Below are positions 6,328 through 44,432 of a stretch of DNA of 64,000 nt, piece after piece; position 1 is the stretch's first letter; every line of letters begins with the position of its first letter. Source of the DNA: Chrysomallon squamiferum (Eukaryota; Mollusca; Gastropoda; Neomphalida; Peltospiridae); the NCBI GenBank assembly GCA_012295275.1, contig CM022672.1, forward strand, positions 23,676,930-23,740,929, given 5' to 3'. Below the pieces are notes generated by a model. It saw only the letters and a program-made list of their open reading frames with translations, ran no database searches and was not told where the DNA came from. Both the position numbers and the translations under genes were made by a program.

Positions 6328-6345
6328 GAAATCGAAAACGAAACT
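6328..6345 (+). promoter_or_regulatory. ISRE/IRF-type motif L2
   Basis: GAAATCGAAAACGAAACT is a perfect GAAANNGAAANNGAAACT in the second upstream module of gene A. The CRE-like site of L1 is not retained here. Confidence 0.55.
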
Positions 6346-6809: not shown

Positions 6810-6827
6810 GAAATCGAAATAGAATCT
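6810..6827 (+). promoter_or_regulatory. Degenerate ISRE-type motif L3
   Basis: GAAATCGAAATAGAATCT keeps the spacing but has one change in the third GAAA. It lies in the third module, followed by GGGAGTTACTAGAAATC as in the others. Confidence 0.4.
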
Positions 6828-19195: not shown

Positions 19196-22100
19196 CTGCA
19201 AAAAAACACAACAAAAAAACATTAAAAAATATAACAAATAAAATAAATAAATAAATAGACCCCACACACATAAATATATAATAATAATAAGAAGAAGAAA
19301 AAGCAGAAATAAAGAAAATGAAAGAAATAAATATCAGAAATGTATTTTATATTGAGCAAAAAATGATTCAAAGATATGTAGGATATGTTAAATTTATTGT
19401 CAATACAGTAATTCTTGCTAATATTTTTATTAATAAGAACACTTTAAATTATTAATCTATCATTGTGCTTTAACCAAGATAATATAGATTGACCATTGTT
19501 TGCTTGCATAGATGCATTTCTCTATAACAAAGATGTAGGTAAATTTGGTTGAGACGATGTTTAAAATACTTCCTTAAACATATTCTTTTAATTAGAGGTT
19601 TATGTATTTGATAGATAAAAACAAATAACATTTTCTAGCCATTACAGCCAATTTAACTATCTAATGCACTAACTGACCAATATACCTTTTTGAGTCATCA
19701 ACACAGGAAAAGCAACAGATGAAAGTTCTTGAGAGTTGGCAAAAGCAAAGATTTTACTAATAATCTCTTTAAGGTTAGAAATTTCTTTCAGATCAGATTT
19801 TAAGGATACCAAAGCATGTATGACCATTTTCTGAAGTTTTCCTTCTGTGGTTTGGAAAATATGTCCAATGGAGAACTGATTAACTGAATAAGCCTTCAAA
19901 GCTTTTCTGTATTCTTCTCCAGCAGCTTCAGAGATATCGTTGGGCACACTATGTTTTTCTGATAGATCTCTATCATGCCAGCAGACTATGGCCTGAACAT
20001 TTGAATGTAAAATGTTATCACAATATATTAATATGTCAGGTACTTTGTCACTTGTAGTTGTCACTTCTGAAGTATTATTTGACTTTTTTAATGTTTCATT
20101 AAATCTGACATTAGGTCTGTTTTTGGTGCTAACAGTTGAAATGTCAGATTTAGAGCTGAGCTGTTTCGTATTCTGCTGGATAACAGATTCATTACCAGCC
20201 TTTTCCTTTGATGCAGCTGATAGACTGGCAGAAGCAGAACTCTCATTTGCATCTTTTGTGTTAGCTGAAAACTGCCTTTTAGATCGTTTTGTAGGCTTAA
20301 TTTTGTTAAGATAAAGATATGCTTTGGTTTTTGCCTTGTCTGTTGTGTCTCTATTATCACCAATTATCACCAGTTTGTCACAGCAGTATTTGCAAAAGAC
20401 ATCGCTGAATTCTTCCCCAAGTTTATTTTCAGCTTCTTTTGCTTTTTCTGATTCTGAAGATGAAATATCAATTTCAAATCTTATCATACCTTCTATCTGA
20501 TGATAAAGCTGCTTTGATTCATCAGGATTAGAAGAAATCTGAAAAGATAATTTCACTTTGTCGTTTACACATTCTGTGATACAACACTTTTCAAGCAGAT
20601 GGTTTTTAATAATTTTCTTAACAGCCTCATAGTGACAAGAGTCAATAACAATTTCTTGAAACTGGTTAGGAATCATTTTTGAAGGAGAATGCTGTTGTGG
20701 TTGTTTCGGTCTTGCACCTTCTCCCATCTGATTAGATAGTCTATGTGAAAAATGAGCTACATCATACTGAGAATTTTGAAAACTATTTATTATTTTGTAG
20801 ACATCAATTAGGTGTGTAAAGGTTTTTGCTTTCACTGAAAAAGTTGGTGGGTTTGACTTTTCACATTTCATGACTTTTACACCATCCAAAGTTTGGAGTT
20901 TCTCCAATAAATGATCATGTCCTTGACATCTAAGAATTGTTGGATTTATGTCTGCCATATGGTTGAAACTCTGAAGTACAGAAATACTTACTTTAAAAAA
21001 AAATTTAAAACACATATTTGTCTACTTATGTGGCTTCTAAAATATATATATAATTTTAAGAAAGAGAAATTAATATTTAAGTTCAAACAAAATGATATAT
21101 TGATTGGTATGTAGTAAGAATTGGAATTCTTAGAATTTGTTTTTATGCTTCATGAATTTAATGTGTAAATAAAGATACATGATTTTTGTGTGAGGTTTTA
21201 ATGGTGTATTCACACATACAAAAAATAAAATTACAAATGAAGTAAAAAATTAATTATAATGTCATGCTCTACACAGATATTAATAGAAAATAAATTAATT
21301 AACTGAGTATAATTTGATTTTCATTTCTGATCAAATCTACACTGTCTTTCAAATGATATCAAAATTTGGCCATCTGAAAATCACACAAATTTTGGTATGT
21401 AGTAAACATTATGAAAATTAATTTATACCATTAAATAACAAACCTCAGTTTCTTCTGTATCTTGTGATTCTCTATCATCTGTAAATCATTTTTGTAACAA
21501 TTAAAATTTCAAATATAGCTGAACAAGAAAAATAAATAAAAGATTGAAATCGTCTTTATAAAATGAAAAGTTTGCATTATACTTAAACATATGTATTATT
21601 ATTTATTTTAGTATTACAAAGTCTGAATATAAATTTAAAAGCTAAACAAACATTTTCAAGGGAGATAACTCTCAACATTTTAAAATCAATTTACCAGCTC
21701 TTTCAGCATCTACAACCATGTTTTCTTGATTCTGGTAAAATATGTAAGAAATAGAATTATTAATAGTGCATCAATAAAATAAAAATATTACACATATTGG
21801 TGACAACTTATGTAGAACATCAAAGTTTTAAATTTTTATTGTATCATAGGATCTCAAATACTAAAATTAATTTTGTCACCGAATCAGACAGATCAATAAT
21901 TACTCATTTACAGTAAAATAAGAAAAGAAGAAACAAATAGAAAAAATGTGCAAAAACAAACCCCCTAAATAAAAAAGCAATAATATATTTTTACATTTAA
22001 CCACAGTTGCAATACTATTTTTCTTAACTTTCAGTTAGATCAGAATTCATTACTAAAACCAAAATGTAAATATATCAAAAATATTCACTAAAAGGGATAA

Positions 22101-23864
22101 CATTTTACCTTTTCAAATTGTGAAATTAAATTTTGTTTCGTTTTTTCATTTTTCTCAGATGAATTTGATGTAATCTTCAAAATTCCTACATTTTCTTCAT
22201 CATGATCAGTGTCTTGGCTTGATAGAAGTCCTGAAAATATTTTAAACAAGGGTAAATGGAAATTCATTATAAAATAAATAATAATTGTAATTATTGCATA
22301 ACTGAGTTTAAAGAAAAAATATATTTGAAATATTAATTTATTTCTGAATGTAAATCATTTGTTAGGAAAATGAATTATTTGTGATATCAATCTCAAACTA
22401 AAACTTACCAGTATAGGTCAGAACTTTTGAAAATAGTGATTGGCTGTTTCCATGCAGTATTTTTGCAAAGTTCTCATAGTCCTTTTTATTGTGTACTGGT
22501 AGTGTGATGAGACATATATTCTTCTTAATCTCACTATCATTCAGACATTCCACCAAAGCCCTACATACCACTTCAGCATTCCTTGCTAACAGGCCTGAAA
22601 ATTGTTTGATCTTTTCATTAAATACAAATTCCACAAAATTAATAATTAAAAAAAAAGAGACAAAACAATTTCAACATATATAATCTTTCTATTAATTTCA
22701 GTTAATTGAGAAAGAAAGTAAATTTTTCTCTTAATTTTTTCTATCCTATTCCATTTTATTTGGTCAGAATATCTTTTAACTTTACAAAAGAATGTCTGCA
22801 ATTCTTAAGAGAACACTGCAATAAATGTAGAGAACACAACCATAGAAGCAACGGTAATTAATAAACTCAGTGCTTAATTAAAGTCCTTTTCACTAAATAA
22901 ATTAAGTTTTGAAATAGAATAATTTTAATATAGTTTTTCAGTCAAAGATATATCAATTTACCATGTGCAGTAATAGGCATTTGCAATGTCTGTAAATACT
23001 GAGATGCTGCAATCTTCAAACTATTATTTATGGCTTCTTTTAGATTATTAGCAATATTCTGTTTTATCAAACAGTGAATCAACATCCTTGAAGCTGGCAA
23101 AGAGTGTGCTCTAGTTTTTACAAATCCATCAGTTTTAAGAGCTGAAACTTTAATAAAGAAGGATTAATTAATTATTTACCTAGTAACAGAGAAAGTAAGA
23201 TATATATAGTGGTACCTTGACTTACAAGTTTATTTCATTCCATGACAGATTGTGTAACTCAATTTGTCATATATCAAATCAGTTTTCCCAAATGAAATTA
23301 ATTGAAATACCATTAATCCCTTCCAGTCCCACCCAAAAACCACCCCAATTTTTTGTAACTTGTTTTTGAATATGAAAAATGTATTTATAAATGGCAAAAA
23401 CTGTATAAAAACAAAACAAAACAGAAAGTAAAGAAATAAACTGGTTTTGTGAAGTATATTTATCTCGGAGATCATACAACCTGGCCTAACTGAAAATGCA
23501 AATTAAAAAAAAAAATTTGGCAAAATATTGCATAAAATGCAAGCACAACACAACAAAGATGCTTCCACAGTGAGGTAACCACATGAAGTAAATGAGTGAA
23601 ATGCAGGATACTAGCAGCTGCATATCTGAAGTTTGCTCAGTAACTCAAACTTTGGCTTGTTATGAGCAGTTGTCTTGCAACTATATATATATACATACAT
23701 ACATACTGTGGTACCTTGACTTAAGAGTGCACCAACTCCAATTTTTTGTTTAGAGTTGCAAGCCAACTGCTCATAACTCAGAGAACTTGTAAGCTGGTGC
23801 ACTCCTAAGTCAACGTACCACAGCATGTATGTATGTATATATATATAGTTGCATACATACATAC

Positions 23865-23929
<65 letters not shown>

Positions 23930-26900
23930 TACAGTATTACTGTTTATATCAATACCATTATTTTGTCTAAATAATATTTCAGTTAAGTGTAACAATTAAT
24001 GCACCAAAAAAACTGATGTTCCATTTAATTTCATGTCTAGTGGTTAAAACCAGCATTAATTTCATTTATGTATTTACTTCCATGGTCATGTTTAATGTTT
24101 TCAGAGCTTGGAATCATGATCATATCAAGTACATAAAAGTGACTATTTCTCGATATCATTTGATTTTTACCAGAACTGTTCTACACTAAAAAGGTTAACT
24201 AACAACTAATGCACAACTTGTTTCAAAGAAAACACTAATTGATAAATATAAAAAAAAAAATCATTTCAGTTATAGAAAGAAGCACATATAATGAAATTTC
24301 ATTTACTATTTAAAATAGGTAATCTCATTAGGAAGGATAGGGGCAGAAGTCCTGAGGATGAATCTTTTGTATTAATCCCTCATAACATTAAATTAATTCA
24401 CTAGTCAACAAATATTTTGAGAAGTTTGAATGAATGAAAATAATATTTCTGATTTGGCATGCTTAGTTTGAGACTGAATTCATACAATGAAATTTCATGT
24501 AATCCCATTAGGAACAATAAGGGCACAAGTAATGGAAGAACTTTTTTTCTAATATTACCTTATAACATTAAATCAATTTACTAGACAGCAAATATTTTTT
24601 TAGTTTGGTTATAAATGAAGATTTTGGTAGCTGAATTATTTTCTAATAAATAAAACATATTGGTATTTTAAAGTTTTCTACTTACTGGATTCACTCAGTT
24701 TTATTGCTTTAATATCTTCATGTCTCATTAATGGATGTTCAGTTGTTTCTGGAAATTTGAAAGTTACAAACACTTAGATACAATCAGATATTTGCTATAT
24801 GCTGAATCGTTCACAATACACATGAGAAGATAAAAGCAATTTTTCTATCCTTTCAGAAAATCCTCTTTAAAAACATTTTTCTAATTAAAAATTATTTTAC
24901 TTTTTAAACAACTTATTATTTTATTTATATGAATTATTTTTTTGTGACTAAAAAATAATATTATATTAATTATTAATGTGCTAGCCAACTCATTAAGAAA
25001 AAAAAAAAAGGATAATTAAAACAAGATAAAGGTGTAAGTATTGAGACGTTTTACCTGAATTCATTTACATTTCTGCAGTATTTAAAATATAAAGTTTAAT
25101 GAACTTCACCTGATAAATCCTCGCTTTCCCAGAAACAAAGAATAGCTTCAGATTTTCCTGCACATTGAGAGATATTTCCTAGAATGAGCTGAATATCAAT
25201 ACCATTGAAAGTGAAGATTCTTCCTGAAATGTTTAATTAAACATATAGAGTATCCAAATAGATAAAACACTGAGTAATGTAAAGATTTTCTTTTTGATAA
25301 ACCTTTAATTTGTGTTTGTATTAAAAAAAAAATCATTAAAACATTAGTAGAAATCTTCAAGTCAAATAAAAAGGGACTTTTGATTCGTCCTTAGATAGAC
25401 CTTACAAATGTCCTGTTACTTATACTCACAGGATCAAATATCTAGAACATAAATATGACCTGAAACCCTGTCAACAACTGAGTTTAGATACTGTATCACA
25501 TGACTTTTGAAATAAATTAATAAAAATTAAAACATTTATATGTAAATAAAACAAGATCAACAATGATGTCCAGTGTTTGTAAACATATAATTTCATAAAC
25601 ATCTCATTTTCTTTCAGTAACATCAATAATAAATTTAATTCAGACTGAGTCTTCAATATAGATAACATAAATATTTCATAGCTTCATCCATAAAACAATA
25701 TATAGCCTATATTTAAACATAACTGCTGAATATTTAGAAAACACATTACTTAATAATGAATATAAAATGAAATTTCTAAGACAGTTTGGTTATTATAAAT
25801 CCTATATCATGTAATGCACACACTATCAAGCATGGGTCAAGCTGACTGTCAGACAAAGACATCCTACACAAGAGACTGCTCTGATTAGCACACTGAATTT
25901 TCATTCATTCACTTATTAATGTTTAATAAAACAAAACAAACAAAATCTAAATTTATAATGCTGCTAATAATTCAGGAACTAACTGAAATTAAAAATTGTT
26001 ACCTTTTTCTGCCCCATAACTTTTCTGCATGTACTTTGAGAGAAATATCTGAAACAGAAGATATTTAAATGTTTGCTAAACAATACCATTTTCTGTTTGT
26101 AGTATGTATCCATACAAATTTGATTTAGTAATCCATTGTTTTTCTAAAATATGTTAGTAATTACTTAATTACCTTTTTGAATTTTGCTTTAGCAAATCAT
26201 CTTTTTTATTTCTTTTTCAATGCTATTTTTTTCAGAAAATAATTATTGTTATGATTTGTTTTGTTTTGTTTTCTTTCTTTTTTTTTTTAGTTTTTTTTTT
26301 TAGTTTTTTTCTGGGAAACTGAAATCAAATATCAAAGTAAAAAGTGTAAAAATCTTGAAAACTTATATTTTCATTTTGATATATTGAAAGGAATATTGCA
26401 GTACCAGAAAACCTTGACTGGAAATGAAATAATAATAATAACTGTCAAAGGCTAAGACATACCTTTTTAATTGTATTGTTAGAAGGACCATCATATATAA
26501 CAATGCCCACTTTCTCAATGGTGGAATCTTTCTTTTCTGTGAAATGTTTTTCCACAGCATTCAACATAGTTGTAACAACAATCTCTGGAGGATAGTTTAA
26601 GTTTCCAGTACCAAGAGTAGGAAATGCAATTGTCTTGTAATGACATTTTTCACACAATGTCAGACATTCCAGAATGAAGTTAGTCATTAGGTGTGTCTAT
26701 AGAAAATAAAGGCAACAGATAAATAAGGATGTTTTATTAATAAATTAATGCATCAGATCAGTTCCATTATGTTAATTATCATGTATGATATTTGATAATA
26801 AAGACAGAGTCATATTAAGATGTATCAAAATATGGATAAAAGAGTTGCATGCTTACTCATCACCACAAATGTTTCAGTTTATTTTTAAAGATATATTCTA

Positions 26901-27997
26901 GATGCTGTTTTATTCCATTATTTCAACATCATCATGTCTTAAGATGTATAACCACAAATTACAGTAATTCTGATTAATTTTAATGTTACAAGCAGCATGA
27001 AAAGTTTATTGTGCTATTGGGAATGTATATAATTTAGAGGCATGTATGACAGATAATCTAGAACAAACAATTAGATGCTGTTTGAAGGAACTCCCTCAGC
27101 AGAGTTATTAAATTATTTTTGTCATCAATCTTTAGTTGATGTTTGTATGTATATGTATTCATTTATCTCAATTTGCAGCATATTGTATGTTATAATTGCT
27201 GGTACTGTATTGTCATTCTCACAGTCTGGTAGGTAAATCAAGTAACTTTGCCACCAGAGAGAATTACACAGTAACATGGAAGTACAGATAGACTGGTCAT
27301 ATTAGAAGGGATTTAGCCTACTTTTATTTTTAACTATAAATATTTTAAACCTCGATTTCAGATTTAAATAGTGTGAAAAGTCTTGGTTTACATTAAAATG
27401 CACTGAATGAAGAATCTTAACATTGACAAAAATACTGTCACTAGACATTTGAATGTTTGAAGTGAACATTTAAAATGATTTATAAAGAAACAAAGATAAA
27501 CAAATAAAGATAACTTTACAATATATATATTTTTTTGAATTCCTGAAATGCAAGAATTATAATGTGATGTTATTATTTTGTGACAAAATGTTAATTACCT
27601 TTTTATCATACACTGGCAGAGCTCCATGAAATATTGCCTTAACTCCTGATAATCTTCCAGGTCCCTGTGATTGCTACTTTCCCTTCTTCAATCCCCAAAT
27701 AATAGTATTTTTTATACATTCTGTTTGAATCTGATCTCCTGCTGATTCAAGTAATGATTTTGAAATCATCCCTTTATTAAGATCTAAATCTGTGTTTGTG
27801 GAATTCACCAGAACATCCACCTAAAAAGAAACATATATTTTTCTACATTTATGAAAAAAGATTCCATTAAAGAATTAGATTTCATCTAATATTACAGATA
27901 TTAATCCATAAAATAATAATAATAATAATAACAATAACAATAAACTGAAAAAAAAACTAATAACAAAACAATAACTAACTAACTAAAACTAACAAAA

Positions 27998-28029
<32 letters not shown>

Positions 28030-31000
28030 ATGAACAATGGAAATTTAACAATTTGCTTCAGTACCATACTTTATGCATGCACTGATATTAAAGGGCTGGT
28101 CCAAATAAAGACATATTTATTTGTTTTCCAAAAATATGTATTTACATGTAACTGGAATGGGAAATTACTTTAAAATCCATTTTTGAATTATATTTCAATA
28201 TAGATTTTTTAATGTTACTGGGATAAAAAGCAGGATAAATTTATGTGTGAAGTTCTATGTGACTGACCTGTGATTGAATGTTGAGAACTCATGACATCAC
28301 TATTATTTTCAATAACATCAGTACTGTTTTAAAGAAATTTTTGGACTAAATGATATAAGAGACAATACGAGAAAATACACAGTCAGTTATTAATTAGTTA
28401 TTCTCTGGGTTTCTAGGGACACATGGTTGTGATAATGAAAATGTAAAATAAATTATAGAGGAAAATATCATTTTGGTAATGTCAAAATTATTGAAACTGC
28501 CATCTTTATCCATCTTGGAAAAATGTAAGAATGAAATATTATTTCAATAGTAATTAGATATATTATATTTTCAGCATATCATTTGGATAGCCATTTTAAA
28601 TATTAGCTGTTTATTGTAGAGAAATTCAGTTCATGTTTTGTACTCCTCTTTTCTATCACAAACATGGTTGAGAATTATCACTGATTTAAAAGTAAATCTA
28701 ATTCTGAATAATATAAATGAACAAATGTATGACATTATAAATGACAGACTGAGGAGGTAGAGTTTAGAAAATAAAGAAGCTGATGTCATAAGAAAAAGTG
28801 NNNNNNNNNNNNNNNNNNNNNNNNNNNNNNNNNNNNNNNNNNNNNNNNNNNNNNNNNNNNNNNNNNNNNNNNNNNNNNNNNNNNNNNNNNNNNNNNNNNN
28901 NNNNNNNNNNNNNNNNNNNNNNNNNNNNNNNNNNNNNNNNNNNNNNNNNNNNNNNNNNNNNNNNNNNNNNNNNNNNNNNNNNNNNNNNNNNNNNNNNNNN
29001 CAGTTAAATGTTATATAATATATCAATTTACCATGTGCAGTAATAGGCATTTGCAATGTCTGTAAATCTTGAGATGCTGCAATCTTTAAGCTCTTGTTTA
29101 TGGCTTCTTTTAGACCATTAACAATATTCTGTTTTATCAAACAGTGAATCAACATCCTTGAAGCTGGCAAAGAGTGTGCTCTAGTTTTTACAAAGCTATC
29201 ATTTTTAAGAGCTGAAACTTTAATAAAGAAGTATTAATTAATTATTTAGCTAATAACAGAGAAAGTAAGATTACATACACACATATACACAGTGGTAACT
29301 TGACTTACAAGTTTATTTCATTTCATGATGGTGTGTGTAACTCAATTTGTCATATATCAAATCAGTTTTCCCAAATGAAATTAATTGAAATACCATTAAT
29401 CCCTTCCAGTCCCACAAAAAAAAACACCCCAATTTTTTGTAACGTGTTTTTAAATATGAAAAATGCATTTATAAATGGCAAAAACTGTATAAAAACAAAA
29501 GAAAACAGAAAGTAAAGAAATAAACTGATTTTGTGAAGTATATTTATCTCAGAGATCATACAACTTGGCCTAACTGAAAGTGCAAATTAAAAATATTTTT
29601 TTCTTTTTTCACAGTATTATTGTTTTTATCAATACCATTATCATGTCTAAATAATATTTCAGTTAAGTGTAACAATTAATGCACCAAAAAAAACTGATGT
29701 TCCATTTAATTTCATGTCTAGTAGTTAAAACCAGCATTAATTTCATTTATGTATTTACTTCCATGGTCATGTTTAATGTTTTCAGAGCTTGGATTCATAA
29801 TCATATCAAGTACATAAAAGTGACTATTTCTCGATATCATTTGATTTTTACCAGAACTGTTCTACACTCAAAAGGTTAACTAACAACTAACGCACAACTT
29901 GTTTTAAAGAAAACACTAATCGACAAATGTGGGAACAGTTCAGGTATTTAACTTGTAGTAAAACTGATGACAAATATAGAAAAAAAATCATTTCAGTTAT
30001 AGAAAAAAGCATATACAATCAAATTTCATTTACTATTTAAAATAGGTAATCTCTTTAGGAAGGATAGGGGCAGAAGTCCTGAGGATGAATCTTTTGTATT
30101 AGTCCCTCATAACATTAAATTAATTCACTAGTCAACAAATATTTTGAGAAGTTTGAATGAATGAAAATAATATTTCTGATTTGGCATGCTTAGTTTCAGA
30201 CTGAATTCATACAATGAAATTTCATGTAATCTCATTAGGAACAATAAGGTCACAAGTAATGGAAGAACTTTTTTTATAATAGTCCTTATAACATTAAATC
30301 AATTTACTAGACAGCAACTATTTTTTCGTTTGGTTATAAATGAAGATTTTGGTAGCTGAATTATTTTCTAATAAATAAAACATATTGATATTTTTAAGTT
30401 TTCTACTTACTGCATTCACTCAGTTTTATTGCTTTAATATCTTCATGTCTCATTAATGGATGTTTAGTTGGTTCTGGAAATTTGAAAGTTACAAACACTT
30501 AGATACAATCAGACATTTGCTATATGCTGAATCGTTCACAATACACATGAGAAGATAAAAACAATTTTTCTATCCTTTCAGAAAATCCTCTTTAAACACA
30601 TTTTTCTAATTAAAAATTATTTTACTTTTAAACAACTTATTATTTTATTTATATGAATTATTTTTTGTGATAAAAAATAATATTATATTAATTATTAATG
30701 TGCTAGCCAACTCGTTAAAAAAAAAGGATAACTAAAACAAGATAAAGGTGTAAATATTGAGACCTTTTATCTGAATTCATTTACATTTCTGCAGTATTTA
30801 AAATATAAAGTTTAATGAATCTCACCTGATAAATCCTTGCATTGCCAGAAACAAAGAATAGATTCAGATTTTCCTGCACATTGAGAGATATTTCCTAGAA
30901 TGAGCTGAATATCAATACCATTGAAAGTGAAGATTCTTCCTGAAATGTTTAATTAAACATATAGAGTATCCACATAGTTAAAACACTGAGTAATGTAAAG

Positions 31001-31974
31001 ATTTTCTTTTTGATAAACCTTTAATTTGTGTTTGTGTTAAAAAAATATATCATTAAAATATTAGTAGAAATCTTTAAGTCAAATAAAAAGGTACTTTTGA
31101 TTCCTCCTTAGATAGACCATACAAATGTCCTGTTACTTATACTGACAGGATCAAATATCTAGAACATAAAAAGACCTGAAACCCTGTCAACAACTGACTT
31201 TAGATGCTGTATCAAATGACATTTGAAAAAAACAATAATAATAATTTTTTTTTTATATGTAAATAAAACTAAATGTAAATATAATTTTATAAACATCTCA
31301 TTTTCTTTCAGTAACATGAATTATAAATTTAATTTAGACTCATTCTTGACATATAGATTGGTGCATAACATAAATATTTCATAGCTTCATCCATAAAACT
31401 ATATATACCCTATATTTAAACATAACAGCTGAATACTTAGAAAACACATGACATAATAATGAATATAAAATGAAATTTCTAAGACATTTTGGTTATTATT
31501 AATCCTATATCATGTAATGCACACACTATCAAGCATGGGTCAAGCTGACTGTCAGACAAAGACATCCTACTCAAGAGACTGCTCTGATTAGCACATTTAA
31601 TTTTCATTCATTCACTTATTAATGTTTAATAAAACAAAACAAACAAAATCTAAATTTATAATGCTGCTAATAATTCAGGAACTAACTGAAATTAAAAATT
31701 GTTACCTTTTTCTGCCCCATAGCTTTGCTGCATGTACTTTGAGAGAAATATCTGAAATGGAACATATTTAAATGTTTGCTAAACAATACCATTTTCTGTT
31801 TGTAGTATGTATCCATACAAATTTGATTTATAAACCATTGTTTTTCTAAAATATGTTAGTAATTTCTTAATTACTTTTTTGAATTTTGCCATAGCAAATC
31901 ATCTTTTTTATTTCTTTTTCAATGCTATTTTTTTCAGAAAATAATTATTGTTATGATTTGTTTTGTTTTGTTTT

Positions 31975-32009
<35 letters not shown>

Positions 32010-35000
32010 TTTTTTTCTGGGAAACTGAAATCAAATATCAAGGTAAAAAGTGTAAAAATCTTGAAAATTTAAATCTTCATTTTGATATATTGAAAGGAAT
32101 ATTGCACGGAAACCTTTACTAGAAATGAAATAATAATAACTGTCAAAGGCTAAGGCATACCTTTTTAATTTTATTGTTAAAAGGATCATCATATATAACA
32201 ATGCCAACTTTCTCAATGATGGAATCTTTTTTTTCTGTGAAATGTTTTTCCACAGCATTCAACATAGTTGTAACAACAATCTCTGGAGGATATTTTAAAA
32301 TCCCAGTACCAAGAGTAGGAAATGCAATCGTCTTGTAATGATATTTTTCACACAATGTCAAACATTCCAGAATGAAGTTAGTCATTTTGGTTGTCTATAG
32401 AAAATAAAGGCAAGAGTTAAATAAAGATGGTTGATTAATAAATTAATGCATCAGATCATTTCTATTATGTTAACTGTTGTTTAATGTATGATATTTGATA
32501 ATAAATACATATTCATATTAAGATGTATTAACATATGGAAAAAGAGTTGCATGCTTACTCACCACAAATGTTTCAGTTTATTTTCAAAGATATATTCTAG
32601 ATGCCGTTTTATTCCATTATTTCAACATGGTCATGTCTTAAGATGTATAACCACAAATTACAGTAATTCTGATTAATTTTAATGTTACAAGCAGCATGAA
32701 AAGTTTACTGTATTATTGGGAATGTATTTAATTTAGAGGCATGTGTGACAGATAATCTAGAACAAACAATTAGATGCTGTTTGAAGGAACTCCCTCAGCA
32801 GTTATTTAATTATTTTTGTCATCAATCTTTAGTCAGTGTTTGTATGTATATGTATTCATTTATCTCAATTTGCAGCATATTGTATGTTATAACTGTTGGT
32901 ACTGTATTGTCATTCTCACAGTCTGGTAGGTAAATCAAGTAACTTTGCCACCAGAGAGAATTACACAGTAACATGGAAGTACAGATAGACTGGTCATATT
33001 AGAAGGGATTTAGCCTACTTTATTTTTAACTATAAATATTTTAAACCTCGATTTAAATAGTGTGAAAAGTCTTGGTTTACATTAAAATGCACTGAATGAA
33101 GAATCTTAACATTGACAAAAATACTGTCACTAGACATTTGAATGTTTGAAGTGAACATTTAAAATGATTTATAAAGAAACAAAGATAAACAAATAAAGAT
33201 AACTTTACAATATATATATTTTTTTGAATTCCTGAAATGCAAGAATTATAATCTGATGTTATTATTTTGGGACAAAATGTTAATTACCTTTTTATCATAT
33301 TCTGGCAGAGCTCCGTGAAATATTGCCTTAACTCCTGATAATCTTCCAGGTCCTGTGATTGCTACTTTCCCTTCTTGAATTCTTGAATTATATTTCTCTC
33401 TACATTCTTTTTGAATCTGATCTCCTGCTGATTCAAGTAATGATTTTGAAATCATCCCTTGATTAAGATACAAATCTGTGTTTGTGGAATTCACCAGAAC
33501 ATCCACCTAAAAAGAAACATATATTTTTCTACATTTATGAAAAAAGATTCCATTAAAGAATTAGATTTCATCTAATATTACAGATATTGATCCATAAAAT
33601 AATAATAATAATAATAACAATAACAATAAACGAAAAAAGACTAATAACAAAACAATAACTAACTAACTAAAACTAACTAACAAAATAAAAAAATAAAAAA
33701 ATAAATAAATAAATAATATGAACAATGGAAATTGTAACAATTTGCTTCAGTACCATACTTTATGCATGCACTGATATTAAAGGGCTGTTCCAAATAAAGA
33801 CATATTTATGTGTTTTCCAAAAATATGTATTTACATGTAACTGGAATGGGAAATTAATTAAAAATCCATTTTTGAATTGAATTTCAATATAGATTTTTTA
33901 ATGTTCCTGAGATAAAAAGCAGGATAAATTTATGTGTGAAGTTCTATGTGACTGACCTGTGATTGAATGTTGAGAACTCATGACATCACTATTATTTATA
34001 ATAACATCTGTACTGTTTTAAGGAAAGTTTTGGGCTAAATGATATAAGAGACAATACGAGAAAATACAGAGTCAGTTATTAATTTGTTATTCCTTATGTT
34101 TCCAGGGACACATGGATGTGATAATGAAAATGTAGAATAAATTACAGAGGAAAACATCATTTTTGGTAATGTCAAAATTATTGTGAAACTGCCATCTTTA
34201 TCCATAATTGAATTAAAAAAAAATAAAATAAAATAAATAATAATAATTAAAAATATAATTAAAAAAATAAATAAGTAAGTAACATTTTGTGGTAGTGAAA
34301 AGCAAAAAGTCATCTGATGCTGTCTAGTGTTATTTGTGAGGTCTTTTCTATATCAGGTTTATTTTACCACAGAATGCAGAATCCTGTGCTTAATGCTGTT
34401 TTCTTTTTCTGGTGTTGAAAGCCCTAAATTTATCAATTTCTGGATTGGCATTTAATAGCTTTTGCAACAGCACAACTATTCTGGTGTGTTACATAAATGG
34501 AGTTATCAGATTTTTGTAAAAAATAAAATCACTTTTCAGAAACAAGTTATATAAGCTAATGTAATTCAGTTTTGGTAATGGTGTGTATTGGCTATTGTAC
34601 CTAACCTCTTCATATGCTGACAGAAGTGATTACAGATCTGCCTTATTTGAATATATCAACATTTGCACATATGATTACTTTGAGTTTGATATATCAATAG
34701 ACAGGATATATCTGATCATGCCTGTACTTTATTATGTGCCAACGTGTTCTCTCATCCTGGAAAAATTGCTGACAGTAGTTTCATATTTTACGTTTGTGTA
34801 TGAATATGAAATATTATTTCAGTAGTCATTAGAACTATTTTTAATTTCAGTATATCATTTGGACTGCCCTTTTAAATATTAGCTGTTTTTCTGATGTTAG
34901 AGAAACTGGGTTGGTCTTTTGTACTGCACTTAAATAATACAACACCTATCACAAACACAGTTAAGAATTATCATTGACTTAAAAATAAATCTAATTATGA

Positions 35001-35979
35001 ATAATATAAATGAACAAATGTATGACATTACAAATGACAGGCCGAGGAGGTGGAGTTTGGAAAATAAAGAAGTTGATGTCATAATAAAAAGTGTTACATT
35101 TGTAAGAAATTAAAACAGTATTTTTATTTTGTACCTTTTGCTTTGCAAGTTCTCCAAAATGAATGTCAATCTTTGAAATATATGTTGTAACAGCATCTAT
35201 TAAAGAAAATAAAAATCTTTCAAAAATTATGTAAAGTGGCATGAATTAAGCAATAATGTTTAAAAATACAGTCATCTTGAAATCAAAATAATACCTGTAA
35301 TAAATTTACTTTTAATGTAAACAAATAATATGTATAGAAAGTACTCTAATTTCATTTGATTTTCTGGATATATGTTCAGTTTATACACAGAAAGGCAGAT
35401 TTATTGAAATAAAAAGACTTACCCTTTTCTTCTGATTTCTTTTTTCTAAGGAATTTATTCTTTGATGAAAATGAACTACTTTTTTCTTGCAATGCAAATG
35501 TGTCATTTATCATATTTGTCATTTGTAAAGCTTTCTCTTTTCTTTGTGTGACCAAGAAAATTTTGGTGATAGAAACAGCTTTGTTGTGGCTGGAGACAAA
35601 ATCCTTAATTCCCATCATAATAAGTTCTGCCAGTTGGCTTTCCAAAATATCTTCATATGACATATCAAACAACACAACTGTAACCTTTTTATTTTTATTC
35701 AGCTGTGTCAAAAGTTCTCTTATACTTTCTTTGCCATTATCTATGGATTTCTTTGAAGAAAAAACATTGTGAAAAACTATATTGTTTGAATAATGTAAAA
35801 CTTTTCCCATTTGTTTTAGACTTTTCTTGAATTGCTGAGAAAGATCATCTGAAAAATAGAATATACAAATATATATTAATCAGATAATGTTTTTATATTT
35901 TCACATTTACTTTATTTATTAAATTTTAACCACAATTGCCTCTTTTTTATTACTGCTGCATAATCACACACACACAATC

Positions 35980-36040
<61 letters not shown>

Positions 36041-37392
36041 CAAACAAACTAAAAAACAAAAAACATTTATTAAAGTATTAGTATTTAAAATGTCATAGTA
36101 ACATTGTCATATGAATTATTTCTGGTGATTTTTTAAACTTTTATATCAATGCAAATCAAAGGGATAAAATAAACAAACAAATTTATTAAGTTGTAATTAA
36201 TCTAATAATTATTTTATTTTATTTCTAGAATAATATTTGAAATTTACCTTTTGATGTTACTGCAGGGCTTGGAATTTGCTGTTTGAACTCATACATCACT
36301 GGAAAAACACAAACACTGCAATTTCCTGAATCAAAAAGTTCCTTAATTGAAACAATGTCCCCACTCATTACTGACAGAGTCACTGGATCATCTTTTTTCA
36401 CTGAGTTCATTGTCCAACAGTCTACCTCATCTGACTGCAATCCATCTACAACTGTTATCATGCAGTTATTAGTTTTTTCTTCATCACATATTATTTTTAT
36501 GCCATTATTTGTGCTGTAGAAGTTGAATGAATCTTCATCTAATGGTAGATCATTGGTGTACAGCTGTTTTGACATATTTTTTATAGCTTCCACAGTTGAG
36601 TGTACCGCATCCATGTTTTGTCCTTTTACAACTAAAATTTGTTTGTTATGTGTTGAAGCATTTATTTTAGTTTTATACTTTATCTGAATGGCTTGCATTT
36701 CTTCAGAGCTGAATTTGTTTAAATAGTCAATTTTCTCTAGTGATAATAGTACAAACCCTTCACAATCACCATTCTCATTTTGTGAAAATGAGCTGTTTTC
36801 GGGTGATGTGACTGTTATTTCAGCTTTCAGTTTCTCAGTTTTGTCATATACTTGAGCTGCATATGGTTTTAAACCAACAATCTCATATCCAGTATCTTTT
36901 TCTAATTTATTTTGAATATTTGTTGCTGTTTTTTCAAGCCCAAGAAGTTTTGTTACAGGCTGTGAGGACATTTTCTCGTGGTGTTCCAAAATGACTTCTT
37001 CAACCACTTTCTCTGCTTGTTTTACTTTGTCACCTTCAACATGCAAGACATTTTCTTCTTTAAAATCAAATGCATGAATGATATTTAGTTCCATTAATTT
37101 TTTACTTAAAAGGTTATGTTTTAAGAAATTAAAAAACCCAGACTTATTCTCACCAGAATATTCTACAATAATTCATTTCACCTGAAAACAATTTTGTTAT
37201 TTTTTCTTTCTCTCTTTTCTTTATTTATTTCCTCTTTTTTTTCATTTATTTATAATGTTTAATTATTTATTATTTTATTTTATTTTATCTTATTTTATTA
37301 TATTATTATTATTATTATTTTTTACGAGTAAGATATTATTCAAAAGATAATATAATACCAGGCTGATCAGCTCCATCTGAATGGGCTGCCAT
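16935..37392 (-). CDS. DTX3L-like: Gene B: multi-macrodomain, KH-like, RING and Deltex-C (DTC) protein, DTX3L-like E3 ubiquitin ligase
   Basis: Exons in transcript order: 37359-37392 (from the ATG), 36248-37162, 35423-35848, 35135-35196, 33288-33506, 32161-32394, 31706-31751, 30826-30939, 30411-30473, 29032-29211, 22409-22594, 22109-22230, 21695-21731, 21444-21478, 19686-20970, 18741-19195, 17427-17626, 16935-17019. All have GT-AG borders and matching phases; the sum is 4698 bases, about 1565 aa. Domains in order: KH-like repeats, divergent macrodomain M1, canonical macrodomain M2, degenerate M3, DTX3L-type KH segment, degenerate M4, C3HC4 RING, DTC. RING-DTC proteins are E3 ligases; DTX3L with PARP9 also ADP-ribosylates ubiquitin. 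Macrodomains bind ADP-ribose. Ligase activity is inferred from family. No ART (PARP catalytic) domain or WWE was seen. This path skips a duplicated exon set at 22962-27820, whose use is unknown. Confidence 0.88.
19686..20970 (-). CDS. Large exon of gene B: DTX3L-type KH segment plus degenerate macrodomain M4
   Basis: A 428-codon exon with acceptor TTCTGTACTTCAG and donor GTATAT. The first two thirds carry KH-like folds resembling the middle of DTX3L (for example FQEIVIDSCHYEAVKKIIKN) and then a Ser/Lys/Asn-rich linker. The last third reads as a macrodomain: NVQAIVCWHDRDLSEKH, then ISEAAGEEYRKAL, then GKLQKMVIHALVSL and SSVAFPVLMTQK. The Asn residues of the ADP-ribose strand and the GTG loop are replaced, so M4 probably does not bind ADP-ribose in the usual way. 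It may be structural, as argued for degenerate macrodomains elsewhere. Confidence 0.85.
22109..22594 (-). CDS. Gene B exons: C-terminal half of macrodomain M3 and acidic linker
   Basis: Exon 22409-22594 (62 codons) encodes the last helix-strand-helix of a macrodomain (NAEVVCRALVECLND, then KNICLITLPVHNKKDYENFA). It has no second copy in the window. Exon 22109-22230 is a Ser/Asp/Glu/Lys-rich linker. Two small linker exons follow at 21695-21731 and 21444-21478. All phases agree (1-1, 1-0, 0-1, 1-0). Confidence 0.8.
23205..23480. mobile_element. MITE-like repeat (copy in unit 2)
   Basis: The segment starts GTGGTACCTTGACTTACAAG and continues with a region of partly self-complementary GTAACTC/TTGACTTAC words, as in non-autonomous DNA elements. 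The same element is at 29285-29560 in unit 3, so it predates the module duplication. It lies in the intron between two macrodomain exons. Family assignment is uncertain. Confidence 0.45.
23677..23852. mobile_element. Foldback element with long inverted repeats
   Basis: The left arm (from CTATATATATATACATACAT at 23681) and the reverse complement of the right arm (ending at 23848) agree at all but 4 of 57 positions. TGCAA/TTGCA extend the palindrome outward. The arms contain the ACTGTGGTACCTTGACTTA word of the MITE nearby, and the loop contains GAGTTGCAAGCCAACTGCTCATAACTC. It is present in unit 2 but absent from unit 3, so it arrived after the duplication or was lost from unit 3. A (GA)n tract follows at 23872-23924. 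Confidence 0.7.
27599..27820 (-). pseudogene. Macrodomain exon of unit 2 with an in-frame stop
   Basis: This is the homologue of 33288-33506. It opens normally (VDVLVNSTNTDL, then MISKSLLESAGDQIQ) but then carries a 2-base net insertion and a garbled stretch. It reaches a TAG (frame GGA AAG TAG CAA), and a 1-base insertion (GGGACCT for GGACCT) restores frame afterwards. The exon is 222 instead of 219 bases and still has both splice sites. A transcript including it would be truncated inside the macrodomain. Confidence 0.8.
28801..29000. other. Assembly gap (200 N)
   Basis: A run of exactly 200 N sits at the junction between the two macrodomain modules. The left edge matches 1896 and 35095 (just before the 62-base exon of the module). 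The right edge matches 22945 (just after the 180-base exon). The missing DNA may therefore contain unit 2's 62-base exon and a unit 3 counterpart of exon 22409-22594. Confidence 0.98.
29285..29560. mobile_element. MITE-like repeat (copy in unit 3)
   Basis: This is the counterpart of 23205-23480, with the start altered to GTGGTAACTTGACTTACAAG. It occupies the same intron position of the duplicated module. Confidence 0.45.
32161..35196 (-). CDS. Gene B macrodomain M2 (canonical)
   Basis: Three exons (35135-35196, 33288-33506, 32161-32394) make a complete macrodomain. Landmarks: IDIHFGELAKQK (first strand; GE in place of the usual GD), VDVLVNSTNTDL, NQGMISKSLLESAG, GPGRLSGVKAIFHGALP, KTIAFPTLGTGILKYPPEIV (the GTG phosphate loop) and a closing strand KVGIVIYD. 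The ADP-ribose contacts in the NSTN strand, glycine loop and GTG loop are all present, making this the most likely ADP-ribose reader of the protein. Confidence 0.88.
35423..37162 (-). CDS. Gene B N-terminal KH-like segment and divergent macrodomain M1
   Basis: Exon 36248-37162 starts at acceptor ATTATTGTAG and joins the first coding exon in frame. It encodes KH-like units (EHHEKMSSQPVTKLLGLEK and following). Its end, VTLSVMSGDIVSIKELFDSG, looks like the first strands of a macrodomain. Exon 35423-35848 supplies the rest: a helix (QQFKKSLKQMG), then IRELLTQL, then KVTVVLFD and VSITKIFLVTQRKEKAL, and a basic Lys/Ser-rich tail. The ADP-ribose motifs other than GDI are lost. Compared with gene A, most of an upstream KH-like array is missing here. 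Confidence 0.7.
35967..36036. repeat. (CA)n microsatellite in gene B intron
   Basis: A long CA tract between exons 36248-37162 and 35423-35848. Confidence 0.95.
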
Positions 37393-37438
37393 CTTTAAAC
37401 AATCCAGATCAAACAGCTGTTGCTACTGCAGTTACATT
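37359..37438 (-). CDS. First coding exon of gene B with strong start context
   Basis: The exon begins after acceptor TTATTTTTGCAG (at 37439) and reads about 46 bases of 5' UTR. It starts at the ATG at 37392 in an AAAGATGGCAGCC context, encodes MAAHSDGADQP and ends in phase 1 at a GTATTA donor. It splices in frame to 37162. I prefer this start to the internal Met at 37094 because the exon is conserved in gene A and the acceptor at 37163 fits. At least one upstream 5' UTR exon is implied and was not located. Confidence 0.7.
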
Positions 37439-37447
37439 CTGCAAAAA

Positions 37448-37486
<39 letters not shown>

Positions 37487-37625
37487 ATGATCATTTGATA
37501 CCACCAACCATTCCATCTATATAATTTTCCTTACAAATAATCGCAAGATCCGAAACTATGAATTTAATGTCAATCGTTTTAATTTCCTATCACAAGTATA
37601 CAAAATAAATAAATAAAAACGCTAT

Positions 37626-37627
<2 letters not shown>

Positions 37628-37709
<82 letters not shown>
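37628..37709. repeat. (GA)n microsatellite
   Basis: A long uninterrupted GA tract about 190 bases upstream of the 5' UTR acceptor of gene B. Confidence 0.95.
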
Positions 37710-37710
<1 letters not shown>

Positions 37711-37993
37711 AAATTAACATAATTATAAATATTTTCTTCACAGCCTAAGACAGTAAATTGATACTCAATAAAGACTACACAGAGATAGTCGCATACATAC
37801 AATGATACATGTACACTACATCAGGAAATAGGTAACTCAGTCAGTGATTTAATATTAATCATATATATATACCTGCATTTAATTACATTAGTATAAAGTT
37901 ATAAACTTATATATATTTTGTAATTAAAATTCAATAGAACTAAATTTTAAATAATAACCGTTCGAATAAAAAGAATTGCATGAAGAATGTAAG

Positions 37994-38011
37994 GAAATCG
38001 AAACCGAAACT
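37994..38011 (+). promoter_or_regulatory. ISRE/IRF-type motif R1
   Basis: GAAATCGAAACCGAAACT is identical to L1 and a perfect GAAANNGAAANNGAAACT. It is followed 27 bases later by TGACGTAA (38039-38046). It lies about 0.6 kb upstream of the first coding exon of gene B. Confidence 0.65.
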
Positions 38012-38526
38012 GGGAGTTATTAGAAATCGCGTGACAAGTGACGTAAAATAAAAACTAGACTGGACTATCAGCTCAATTCGAAATACTGACTTTCGATTAA
38101 GATAATAATAATAATAATAATAAGAATAATAATAATGATAATAATAATAATGAAAAAGGTAAATAAATAAATGAATAAAAATAAAATAAATAATTAAACA
38201 TTCATTGCCTTTAAGTTCGGGCTTAAAATAGGAAGTAAATACTGTCCTGTTATTCTGAATTGTTTCGATACAGAAAACGTGTTTGAACCAGAATTTCGAT
38301 TAGTAAGCACGAATACGCAAAATAAAAATTATATAAATTCTTATTTATTTATTTAAGTTCACAAAACTAAGTAACGGAAAACTTAAAAAATGAGCGTGTA
38401 TAAATATTAGTTTTTGGGAGTAACTGACAAGATCACAAGAAATTTAACTATTTTTGGTTTCTCGTGCTGCCCTAGGATTTGAATTCATTATGCACTTTAA
38501 TTTACAATAATATATGTAATAAGTTT

Positions 38527-38528
<2 letters not shown>

Positions 38529-38609
<81 letters not shown>

Positions 38610-38626
38610 TGTGTGTGTGTGTGTGT
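38529..38626. repeat. (GA)n then (GT)n microsatellite
   Basis: A GA tract followed by GTGTGT at the start of the second upstream module. 5790-5862 in the gene A copy has the same composite structure. Confidence 0.95.
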
Positions 38627-38911
38627 TACATGCACATAATAATTAACATTTTTCTCACAGCAAGCTATATTGGTACACATATAAAGACCAATCACATATT
38701 CATACATGTATGTAAACTTATCCAGCAACCGATTTAATAACAATTACATACACGCGCACACGCAGGTAAATGTGATCATAAGAGGAAAAAAGTAATAAAC
38801 TTATATGGTTTGAAAATAAATTATAATAAAACAAATTTTTAACAATTACCGTTCAAATAAATTCCAAAAAAAAAAAAAAAAAAATTGAAGCAAGAATATT
38901 CGAACATTAGG

Positions 38912-38928
38912 GAAATCGAAACGAAACT
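38912..38928 (+). promoter_or_regulatory. ISRE-type motif R2 (one spacer base shorter)
   Basis: GAAATCGAAACGAAACT has three GAAA words with the second spacer reduced to one base. It is followed 27 bases later by TGACGTAC (38956-38963). Confidence 0.5.
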
Positions 38929-39493
38929 GGGAGTTACTAGAAATCGCGGGACGAGTGACGTACAATAAAACAAAATAGACTAACAAAACAGGTCGTATCA
39001 TGCAATTATGGAGGAGAAAAAAAGAAAAGAAAAAAAAAGTAATAATAATAAGAAGAAGAAGAAGAAGAAAAAGAAGAAGAAGAAGAAAGAAAGAAAGAAA
39101 GAAAGAAAATTAAATAAATAAATGCAAATAAAGAAAGAAAGAAAGAAATAATCAACATAATTAAGAATAACATATGTAAACATTGTTCTGATATTTCGAT
39201 TTCAAAGCTTCTCGATGCTTTAGAAATTCGAATTAGTAAAAATGAATACATTATTATAAAAATTACCTTAATTAATTTATTGATTTATGGTGGGTTAGGA
39301 AAAATAACCTTAGCTTTTAGGTTAATAAAATGAGCACATTTGAATATCTTTTAAATATTGGTTTTTCAGAGAGTGGTAACCCCTAACTATGACGATAATC
39401 TACAGGACTCCGATGGAAATAAGTATTTTTACTCTTGTGCTAATCTACTAATTTAAACATTTATGAACTTTAATTTATATTAATATATGAAAC

Positions 39494-39497
<4 letters not shown>

Positions 39498-39560
<63 letters not shown>
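39498..39560. repeat. (GA)n microsatellite
   Basis: A GA tract opening the third upstream module of gene B. Confidence 0.95.
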
Positions 39561-39562
<2 letters not shown>

Positions 39563-39961
39563 ATAAAATGCATATAATAACAAATCTTTTCCTTATAGCA
39601 TAATTAAACCAGTAAATTGATATACAATAAAGACTACAGAGACATGGATGCTTGTACATTTTATCTACAGTATAATAATATGCGCAGTTGAAATTATATT
39701 ATTATAAATTATATATTTTTAAATTAAAATATAATAAAAGAAAATTTAAAACAACTACCTTAAAAAAAGATAATAATAATAAATAATAAAAAAAAAGAGA
39801 TAACAGATACAATATGTTAAGCAAGAAAGTACGAACATTAAGGTAATCGAAAAGTAAAAGTCAAATTAGTTATAAACTTGTATATTTTGAAATTAAAATA
39901 TATTAAAACCAATTTTTAAACAGTTACCAGGAAATAAATTCCAAATGCAAAATTTTGTAAG

Positions 39962-39979
39962 GAAATCGAAACAGAAACT
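39962..39979 (+). promoter_or_regulatory. ISRE/IRF-type motif R4
   Basis: GAAATCGAAACAGAAACT is a perfect GAAANNGAAANNGAAACT. The ATF-like site at the equivalent distance is degenerate (TGACGCAG). Confidence 0.55.
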
Positions 39980-40359
39980 AGGAGTTACTAGAAATCGGAT
40001 GAATAGTGACGCAGAATATAAACTACCGTCTTAACCAATTAAGAAAGAAAAAATTAAATAAAAAAAGTAGATAATTAAAATCGTAAAAATAAAATAACAT
40101 AAATAATGAAAATGTTTTGAAGTCAGAATTATTTCGGAGTAATAAATATGAGTATGGAAAATAATAAAATTTTCTTTTCAAATTCAATGCTTCTAGGTAA
40201 ATAACATAATCTTGAGCAATTTCACTTTAGTTATGTATTTGCCATGCTGAATAATTAATTTTAATACACAGATAATGTGATCGTGTTAAAGTGATTAACT
40301 CAAGTCTTTCAAAATGTAAGAAGGATTGACTAACGTGAACACACACACATATACACACG

Positions 40360-40365
<6 letters not shown>

Positions 40366-40434
<69 letters not shown>
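40366..40434. repeat. (GA)n microsatellite
   Basis: A GA tract preceded by a short (CA)n, past the last ISRE-bearing module. Confidence 0.95.
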
Positions 40435-40440
<6 letters not shown>

Positions 40441-42398: not shown

Positions 42399-44432
42399 TC
42401 AACCACCTCTCATTTCTCTGGTAGCTTTATGGAGAACATTTATCAAAATCTCTCGCTGGGCTTGAAAACCTACAAATCTTGTTAAAGCTTCAATTCCTGT
42501 GGATCCTATAACCGCTTGAACTTTTTCAACAATTCTTTGTTTTTCCTCATCTGACAATCCCTTTAAAGTTTCAATTAGGGACTGATATTCATCTCCAACA
42601 GCATATCCAATCACTGCACCTGAAATAACAATTACAAAATCATTATTACATAGTAAAATGTAATAATTCTTCTGACATTTTTCTTCCTGTGTGATATTAT
42701 TAACTGTTTTAAAGGTTATTCACAATTCTCTTTCAAATTCAGAAAATAAATACTGATAGTGATAATGAGAATAATATACATTTCTTAAACAGTACATGCC
42801 TCAGTAAATGAAGTTTAAAACTATTGTCTTTAATATTTAAAGTTATGATAAAACTTGATCCTAATCTAAAGATAATTTTTTTTATTTAACTTGCTGTTGT
42901 GTCTATCCTGGCAAAGTTTATAACAAGATTAAATTAAGACAGTATGCAACATTTTCAAAAACATTTAAATATTAAGTGAATTAAGATTATTACTTGACTT
43001 CTAAAATTATATAAAATATGCTTTGTTATCTTATCATTTTTGCATTTATGCTTCATTCTCAGTACCTTTACAATTACATTAATAATTTGTAATTTCAAGA
43101 AACAATAATTATTGCATTAGCTTACACTTTGACAAGCAGTCTATTTTCAGACATGTTTTTCATCTTTCATATTAGTAAAAACATACTTCAAGATTCATTA
43201 ACCAAATGATTAAAAATAACAACTATAAAACAAATTTAAAACGTGATGAACTTAGCAATCATCCCTGGTTTTGTAAGCTTCAGATTTTTGACTGTCAGAA
43301 TAAGGTTAAACAACCAATGAAATCCCAAAGTTTTAATTACAATAATTACAAATTTATTGAAATAACATTTACAACACAAGTTAATATGCATTATAAGTCA
43401 TTTTCCCTATCCTATTTGATTATTGATAAAAAAAAACAGACAATGTTTAAACACGAATGACAATTACTGGGAGCTGCAGTCCATGTTTAGTTTTAAAAGC
43501 TATTCATGGAAAACATTACTGGAGATTTTCAAATATGAACACCTGTTATTCCTCCAATTAAAGCACCTGGTGGTCCACCAATACAGCCTCCAACCAGAGT
43601 ACCACCTGCACCCCAGGCAACTTGCTTCATGATTCCTACATTAAATAAATAAATATATAAAAACAAACAAAACAACAACAACAACAACTAATTAACCCTC
43701 AACAAAAAAATAAATGAACAAACCAGAATAAATAAATAAATAAATTAAATATTAAATATTTTGTGCTAGTAGCAATAATGGCAGTGTATTTTACATTCTT
43801 TTTCTTTCTTTTTTCTTTGGCTATAGGTAAATGTATATAAAAGATACAGTTAGCTGAAAAAGAGTAACATTAAGTACATATATCATTTTAACAGTACATT
43901 GCATTTATCATTCATTAGCCTGTTATCTGATAAATCTGATCCATTCATTCCTTTTATTAACCTTGCAGTGTGTTGCTATTATTCAGTTAGAATAAATGAA
44001 AAAATATTTTATTTAACAATGCACTCAAGAAAATTCAGCTGTGATAGGTTATGGTGCATCAGACAATGAAAAAGGAAATCTGCTGCTGCCACCTTGTGAT
44101 GAGCAAAGTAGTAAGGACTCTTTTACATGAACTATTCTACAAACAGGTGAGTTCATTCCTTATCTCTGTAGCTGTACTTGTGGAGTATTGGTGGAAAAAG
44201 CTATAACTTGATGGTCCACAAACAGACTGATTCAGTGACTCCCACATTGTGAGCTGACTCTGCAATTGCACTACATTGCACTTCTAATTAGAAACAAAGG
44301 GACTATTACATTTTTGAGCTAATAAATGTTACCTGCAGCTGTTCGCTTCAGTTCCTTATTAGTTTCCAAGATCTCTATGAGATGGTCAAAATATGGAATA
44401 AATGCTGCACCAAGAACACCTGCAGCAGCCAT
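42399..44432 (-). CDS. C19orf12: C19orf12 homologue (glycine-zipper membrane protein)
   Basis: Three exons, 44333-44432, 43543-43635 and 42399-42619, splice with correct phases to 137 codons plus TGA (human C19orf12 is about 141-152 aa). The middle carries the family's glycine-zipper membrane hairpin: GAGGTLVGG, GGPPGALIGGITG and AVIGYAVG. It is followed by the conserved soluble helices SLIETLKGLSDEEKQRIVEK and REILINVLHKATREMRGG. In humans the protein sits at mitochondria, ER and contact sites, acts in lipid and iron homeostasis, and its loss causes NBIA4; the molecular function is unclear. A CTTTCTTTCTAG acceptor lies directly before the ATG, so a 5' UTR exon probably lies further up. The gene is head-to-head with IDE. 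Confidence 0.92.

Follow-up and report, generated by a model that had tools for sequence, protein, structure and literature searches.

Tandem ISRE-type modules upstream of a macrodomain-RING-DTC gene in the scaly-foot snail Chrysomallon squamiferum: candidate IRF-bound elements of a possible antiviral-type programme

Introduction

In vertebrates, PARP14, PARP9/DTX3L and SAMHD1 are interferon-induced, and the ISRE consensus is characterized by GAAA repeats at a 2-base spacing and a GAAACT end. The human PARP9/DTX3L pair is said, in work of 2006 attributed to Juszczynski and cited in PMC4070648, to have a bidirectional promoter that responds to interferon-gamma. In the IFN-beta enhancer, IRF-type sites adjoin an ATF/bZIP-type site.

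Two oyster proteins, IRF2 and IRF8, can switch on human reporters of both the ISRE and the IFN-beta type (PMC5557890), and a cGAS/STING-TBK1-IRF axis has been described in the oyster (PMC8218723). The ISRE per se is already known in invertebrates, since a shrimp IRF binds the native Vago4 ISRE by EMSA and activates Vago4 (PMC4602278). In Aplysia sensory neurons, the DTX3L ortholog is co-expressed in one module with the orthologs of IRF1, IRF8, RIG-I, PARP12 and ZNFX1, the PARP14 ortholog being listed in a different co-expression module (PMC8195618). SAMHD1 is reported as over-represented in one of the compared disease-resistant oyster families (PMC6971885), and clustered IRF3 motifs were scanned across 97 genomes, one mollusc included (PMC11934927). 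In the literature consulted (titles and the beginnings of abstracts, with few subscription journals), no native ISRE arrays at such mollusc genes were described. The wider question is to what extent the ISRE programme is older than interferon. Described here is a set of native candidate ISREs in a mollusc at three families that are interferon-induced in vertebrates, one of them with a tandem array.

Results

The window is a stretch of 64,000 nucleotides (C8:23676930-23740929) of an assembly of 404,604,130 bases in 22 contigs. The one match obtained at the protein level came from Gigantopelta aegis, with 34% identity. Gene B, on the minus strand at 17423-37392, comprises an N-terminal exon, macrodomains, RING and DTC, and we infer that its exons belong to one transcript. 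The initial annotation had described a gene uniting the last three functions, and all three were matched in Pfam on the minus strand: the macrodomains at 33246-33503 and 19669-21018 (PF01661), and RING and DTC at 18705-19343 and 17423-17647 (PF13920 and PF18102). Two exons of gene B used as queries had no match in the PDB. The gene contains a 200-N gap and an internal tandem duplication (22948-28566 and 29018-34259, about 5.5 kb, approximately 92% identical). The candidate start exon (37359-37438, minus strand) exhibits an ATG at 37392, with an acceptor before it and a donor after it (splice sites read by eye), and is retained in paralogs A and C. Further upstream, the ORF at 42399-42716 on the minus strand corresponds to another minus-strand gene; it has no Pfam match, and it may resemble C19orf12.

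Direct reading of the sequence upstream of gene B confirmed ISRE/IRF-type motif copies at 37994, 38912, 39843 (decayed) and 39962, where they had been annotated, all on the plus strand. ISRE B1 (GAAATCGAAACCGAAACT, 37994-38011), about 0.6 kb upstream of the candidate ATG, and ISRE B3 (GAAATCGAAACAGAAACT, 39962-39979) are intact. ISRE B2 (GAAATCGAAACGAAACT, 38912-38928) has a 1-base deletion in the second spacer, and the 2-base spacing is kept by its first GAAA pair only. The decayed copy (GTAATCGAAAAGTAAAAG, 39843-39860) has an intact counterpart at 6328 in array A, described below. These copies belong to a tandem array of about 0.9-kb units (37628-40435), the unit consisting of a GA tract, an AT-rich TATA-like stretch and an ISRE module. 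There are four GA tracts, at 37628, 38527, 39498 and 40365, and the third unit has an internal offset copy of 169 bp. The tandem repetition proposed at the outset is confirmed, with a period that the GA-tract spacing of about 0.9 kb corrects from the 0.4-0.9 kb given then.

The form of the element in array B, with GAAA repeats, 2-base spacing and a GAAACT end, fits the ISRE/IRF consensus at the sequence level, as the initial annotation had claimed for its triple GAAA. In module B1, the ISRE is followed by GGGAGTTATTAGAAATCGCGTGACAAG and then by TGACGTAA (38012-38046, plus strand); this extension is conserved within the array, and TGACGTAA is presumably a bZIP/ATF-like site. A TGACGT site is present after the conserved extension in two of the three units. 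In a comparison with shuffled sequence, GAAANNGAAANNGAAA was found 4 times in the window with 0.09 expected (100 shuffles); 4 perfect GAAANNGAAACT cores at 2-base spacing are distributed across arrays A and B. Motif tests consisted of consensus patterns, shuffles, one reversed pattern and one decoy pattern. An extra perfect ISRE core, GAAAACGAAACT, adjoining a TATATATA run, is observed on the minus strand at 62805-62816.

Within array B, the mean pairwise identity among B1, B2 and B3 is 0.95 over the 19-bp ISRE and 0.92 over the next 16 bp (GGGAGTTATTAGAAAT), against 0.76 in the CRE-like part, 0.56 in the left flank and 0.42 in the right flank. The conservation peak at the ISRE is modest, because the adjoining TATA-like stretch of the left flank (37894-37963) also reaches 0.70-0.79. 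Over the ISRE and its extension, B2 and B3 are identical at 33 of 35 positions, with P between 0.003 and 0.02 for a background identity of 0.75-0.80. The conserved block is held to be non-coding. A minus-strand open frame spans it in both A1 and B1, and a coding reading of the block was rejected because the deletion at 38912 shifts the frame and the differences between B1 and B3, examined by eye, are mostly amino-acid changing.

The region at 37.3-42.2 kb of the window is paralogous to that at 4.7-9.0 kb, where a second array, absent from the initial annotation, lies upstream of gene A with motifs at 5193, 6328 and 6810. On the plus strand, ISRE A1 (5193-5210) is identical to B1, ISRE A2 (GAAATCGAAAACGAAACT, 6328-6345) is intact and ISRE A3 (GAAATCGAAATAGAATCT, 6810-6827) is decayed. 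The status of equivalent sites differs between the arrays, 39843 being decayed and 6328 intact, 39962 intact and 6810 decayed; ISRE sites therefore turn over, each array retaining two intact ones. The four strict motifs of the window are tandem or segmental duplicates of one origin and not four independent events.

Gene A (630-4792, minus strand), a paralog of gene B, extends to the left beyond the window, with its DTC at C8:23669128. This gene has a decayed long exon: relative to paralog C, with its open frame of 1298 aa, the reading frame changes, and two neighbouring stretches contain 14 and 6 in-frame stops. Despite these 20 in-frame stops, the block most like that of gene B is that of gene A, A1 lying within a 95-bp block identical to 37990-38084. 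The expected number of such identical runs is 6e-10 to 2e-5 given the identities observed, rising to 0.02 under a local identity of 0.9. As the long exon of gene A is broken, the identity may be due to gene conversion, which is a fair rival explanation of it, and we do not rely upon it. In paralog C (C8:16.32 Mb; C8:16321001-16331000, L038) the start exon is preserved, as is the right flank of module B3, and exactly 2500 N (C8:16326666-16329165) mask the expected position of its array.

Genome-wide, the strict motif GAAANCGAAANNGAAACT is found 31 times in 404.6 Mb, compared with 2 occurrences of the reversed pattern and 3 of a decoy with 3-base spacers; none of the 3 decoy sites is near the listed places of DTC, PARP14-RRM or SAMHD1-like genes. 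The window contains 4 strict motifs, for 0.004 expected per 64 kb from the density outside it. The loose pattern GAAANNGAAANNGAAA is found 4345 times, with 2684 for its reversed control. According to the initial annotation, a motif forming part of a repeat dispersed across the genome, with no link to immune genes, would have spoken against its interpretation. The whole module matches 4 times genome-wide, all in the window, and was rejected as a dispersed repeat at the sensitivity used, at which the copies at 6328 and 6810 were missed.

All 31 strict sites were placed; the sequence read around them was a 3-kb locus for 30 sites and 1.2 kb for the remaining one. Fourteen of them, or 14 of the 27 outside the window, are in coding or retroelement sequence: L039, L040, L066 (reverse-transcriptase-like), L041, L042, L046, L047-L049, L050 (arrestin) and L054-L057 (P450-like). 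These labels were given from the ORF over the motif, homology among loci and reading by eye; their Pfam support is weak, with matches for L042 and for the exon adjoining L050 (Arrestin_C, 3.2e-5), both under Pfam's cut-off. Nine of the 31 are upstream of or beside antiviral-type genes (4 in the window, 2 on C3, 2 on C12 and 1 on C8). At the other 8 (L045, L051, L052, L062, L065, L067, L068 and L078), no antiviral neighbour was recognised in the short stretches read, namely 1.5 kb on each side for six sites, about 0.6 kb for L078 and more for L062 (C11), where a chitin-binding gene is present and no immune gene was recognised. The exact 18-mer of B1 occurs 5 times genome-wide, at A1, at B1, in both SAMHD1-like promoters and at one coding site. 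The latter (L050, C5) was discarded as a candidate, as it is coding for an arrestin-domain protein, the frame of the motif being read by eye. Separately, a repeated sequence family that carries GAAAATGAAATAGAAA is observed at C1:0.12-0.21 Mb (L002, L004 and L007), several of its copies having perfect ISRE cores.

With regard to the SAMHD1-like genes, the strict sites at C3:10203772 and C3:10235329 each precede, by 0.8-1.1 kb, the first HD exon of SAMHD1 type that was found. The HD exon by the first of these sites matched SAMHD1 chains with an E of 1.6e-20 in a PDB comparison; the remaining SAMHD1-like exons were assigned by eye or by matching to this PDB-supported exon. Pfam named none of the SAMHD1-like exons. 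The 19-bp ISRE stretch is identical in the two promoters, the surroundings of which align in patches only, at 72-83%. SAMHD1-like HD exons are expanded in this region, with 22 matches in 13 exon groups at C3:10.107-10.321 Mb.

The strict sites at C12:4968295 and C12:4969302 form a second tandem pair, 2.7 and 3.7 kb from the RRM exon of a PARP14-like gene. This gene was matched in Pfam to RRM_PARP14_3, KH_PARP14_8, WWE and PARP; its macrodomain-like exon, recognised by eye, had no Pfam match, and a PDB search with the PARP14-like KH/WWE exon gave no match. The site at C8:7005977, homologous to the C12 pair, is 7.0 kb from the nearest PARP14-type RRM exon and also 29 kb before one DTC gene, and it could serve another gene. 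Two PARP14-like genes have the strict element on their upstream side, with 3 sites within about 7 kb. No strict motif was found within 20 kb of DTC exons other than those of the window genes, in a count of 25 of the 42 DTC exon matches, approximately one per gene, with distances measured to these exons. At C8:7.03-7.11 Mb and C8:16.31-16.37 Mb, DTC exons interleave with or lie near PARP14-type RRM exons, which recalls the vertebrate PARP9-DTX3L-PARP14 linkage.

A strict motif is nearby in 2 of 13 SAMHD1-like exon groups and in 2 of 13-15 PARP14-RRM groups (grouped by distance), so a wide regulon is disfavoured. Most family members would be expected to carry the element in an antiviral regulon, and this is not what is observed for the strict motif, to which the survey applied; the counts for these large families are lower bounds.

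Outside the window, 5 of 27 strict sites are in the SAMHD1-like cluster (2) or at most 10 kb from a PARP14-RRM exon (3), which gives a P of 2e-10 under uniform placement with homologous copies uncollapsed. When all homologous copies were collapsed, with the SAMHD1 pair and the three PARP14 sites counting as one each, the association became weaker, with a P of 4e-4 (at least 2 of 24) where it had been 4e-6. With coding sites also dropped, P is 6e-5 (2 of 10). PARP14 alone, counted once, gives a P of 0.017 within 10 kb and of 0.0096 within 5 kb. PARP14 had been named beforehand in the initial annotation and SAMHD1 was chosen afterwards; the collapsed association, at about 4e-4, consists of two events, one of them in a family picked afterwards.

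The genome search yielded at least three IRF genes, in the form of three loci with PF00605 IRF DNA-binding domains. No perfect ISRE was found within the five IRF-bearing 3-kb loci. On the minus strand of L014, at position 525, CGGAAACCGAAAAGG precedes the C3 exon for an IRF DNA-binding domain by about 1 kb and is possibly an IRF half site.

Discussion

The array is probably a tandemly duplicated promoter/enhancer region of gene B, whose modules would be bound by IRF as part of an antiviral-type programme. The same rare element is found at three antiviral-type families, namely macro-RING-DTC in the window, SAMHD1-like on C3 and PARP14-like on C12 and C8, a pattern which suggests that an interferon-style gene programme may be at work in the snail genome. 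In such a programme, virus sensing would lead one or more IRF proteins to bind the ISREs of the array and thereby increase the transcription of gene B. The presence of several copies could make this induction stronger or more graded, and a bZIP factor at TGACGT would perhaps join IRF binding. SAMHD1-like and PARP14-like genes that have the same element upstream would then belong to one shared IRF-driven programme. We infer the IRF binding, the viral activation, the direction of the effect, and what the copy number and the TGACGT site contribute. The IRF-driven antiviral regulon that the initial annotation took to be conserved is partly supported, at the sequence level and within one genome, by the ISRE fit, the non-dispersed module (at the sensitivity used), the three IRF loci and the element at SAMHD1-like and PARP14-like genes, and the published oyster and shrimp results lend support to such a mechanism in invertebrates; its breadth is not supported, few family members having the strict motif.

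The array might instead be a by-product of local tandem or segmental duplication and gene conversion, with ISRE-like sites whose presence goes back to chance or to an old promoter and which are now without function. The inclusion of decayed copies in the tandem units, the 95-bp block of identity with gene A, which has a broken long exon, and the AT-rich, repeat-rich nature of the DNA are all compatible with this. Nevertheless, the ISRE is the conservation peak within array B, and the strict motif, which is rare (31 in 404.6 Mb), recurs by PARP14-like and SAMHD1-like genes without any match to the module DNA, so we regard such an origin as unlikely. Constitutive or blood-cell expression driven by another factor reading GAAA or GGAAA repeats, of the ETS/PU.1 type, a STAT or an A-tract reader, appears quite improbable. 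GAAA repeats alone are indeed unspecific, as the loose pattern is common (4345 against 2684 reversed), but the enriched form has the exact 2-base spacing and the GAAACT end of the vertebrate ISRE consensus, and the neighbouring gene families are known as interferon-stimulated genes.

ISREs function in both orientations, and those of the array might belong to a plus-strand transcript or to the minus-strand gene upstream (ORF 42399-42716), and not to gene B. This we consider very improbable, since the array immediately precedes the candidate start exon of gene B, gene A is preceded by the same arrangement, and paralog C retains the start exon together with the right flank of module B3.

Taking the array as IRF-bound promoter/enhancer modules of gene B, we tentatively raise the possibility, which we hold to be somewhat less than an even one, that an ancestral IRF-ISRE programme joined the Deltex-macrodomain, PARP14 and SAMHD1 families before type I interferon, in the common ancestor of molluscs and vertebrates, and that the mollusc strengthened it by duplicating ISRE modules. 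With three candidate target families in one mollusc, shared target genes become testable.

The mollusc elements have in common with the vertebrate ISRE bound by IRF and ISGF3 the GAAANNGAAACT core with an extra GAAA at 2-base spacing, and a position upstream of Deltex-macrodomain, PARP14-type and SAMHD1-type genes. They differ in forming tandem 0.9-kb promoter units of putative IRF sites. The presumed pairing of IRF-type and ATF/bZIP-type sites is also that of the IFN-beta enhancer, with a different spacing and order. With the human PARP9/DTX3L promoter, the locus has in common a Deltex-macrodomain system under interferon-type control, which in the mollusc is a candidate one. In contrast to the human pair, macrodomains, RING and DTC are in one mollusc gene, and the array precedes gene B alone, as far as seen.

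Among invertebrates, the shrimp Vago4 ISRE is likewise native and is bound and activated by IRF (PMC4602278). It is from another phylum and is a single site at a cytokine-like gene, whereas the mollusc has an array of candidate sites at an effector-type gene. The oyster RIG-I/MAVS-IRF system shares with the present locus the ability of molluscan IRFs to act via ISREs; the oyster work used human reporters in human cells, whereas the scaly-foot snail provides native candidate target sites (PMC5557890).
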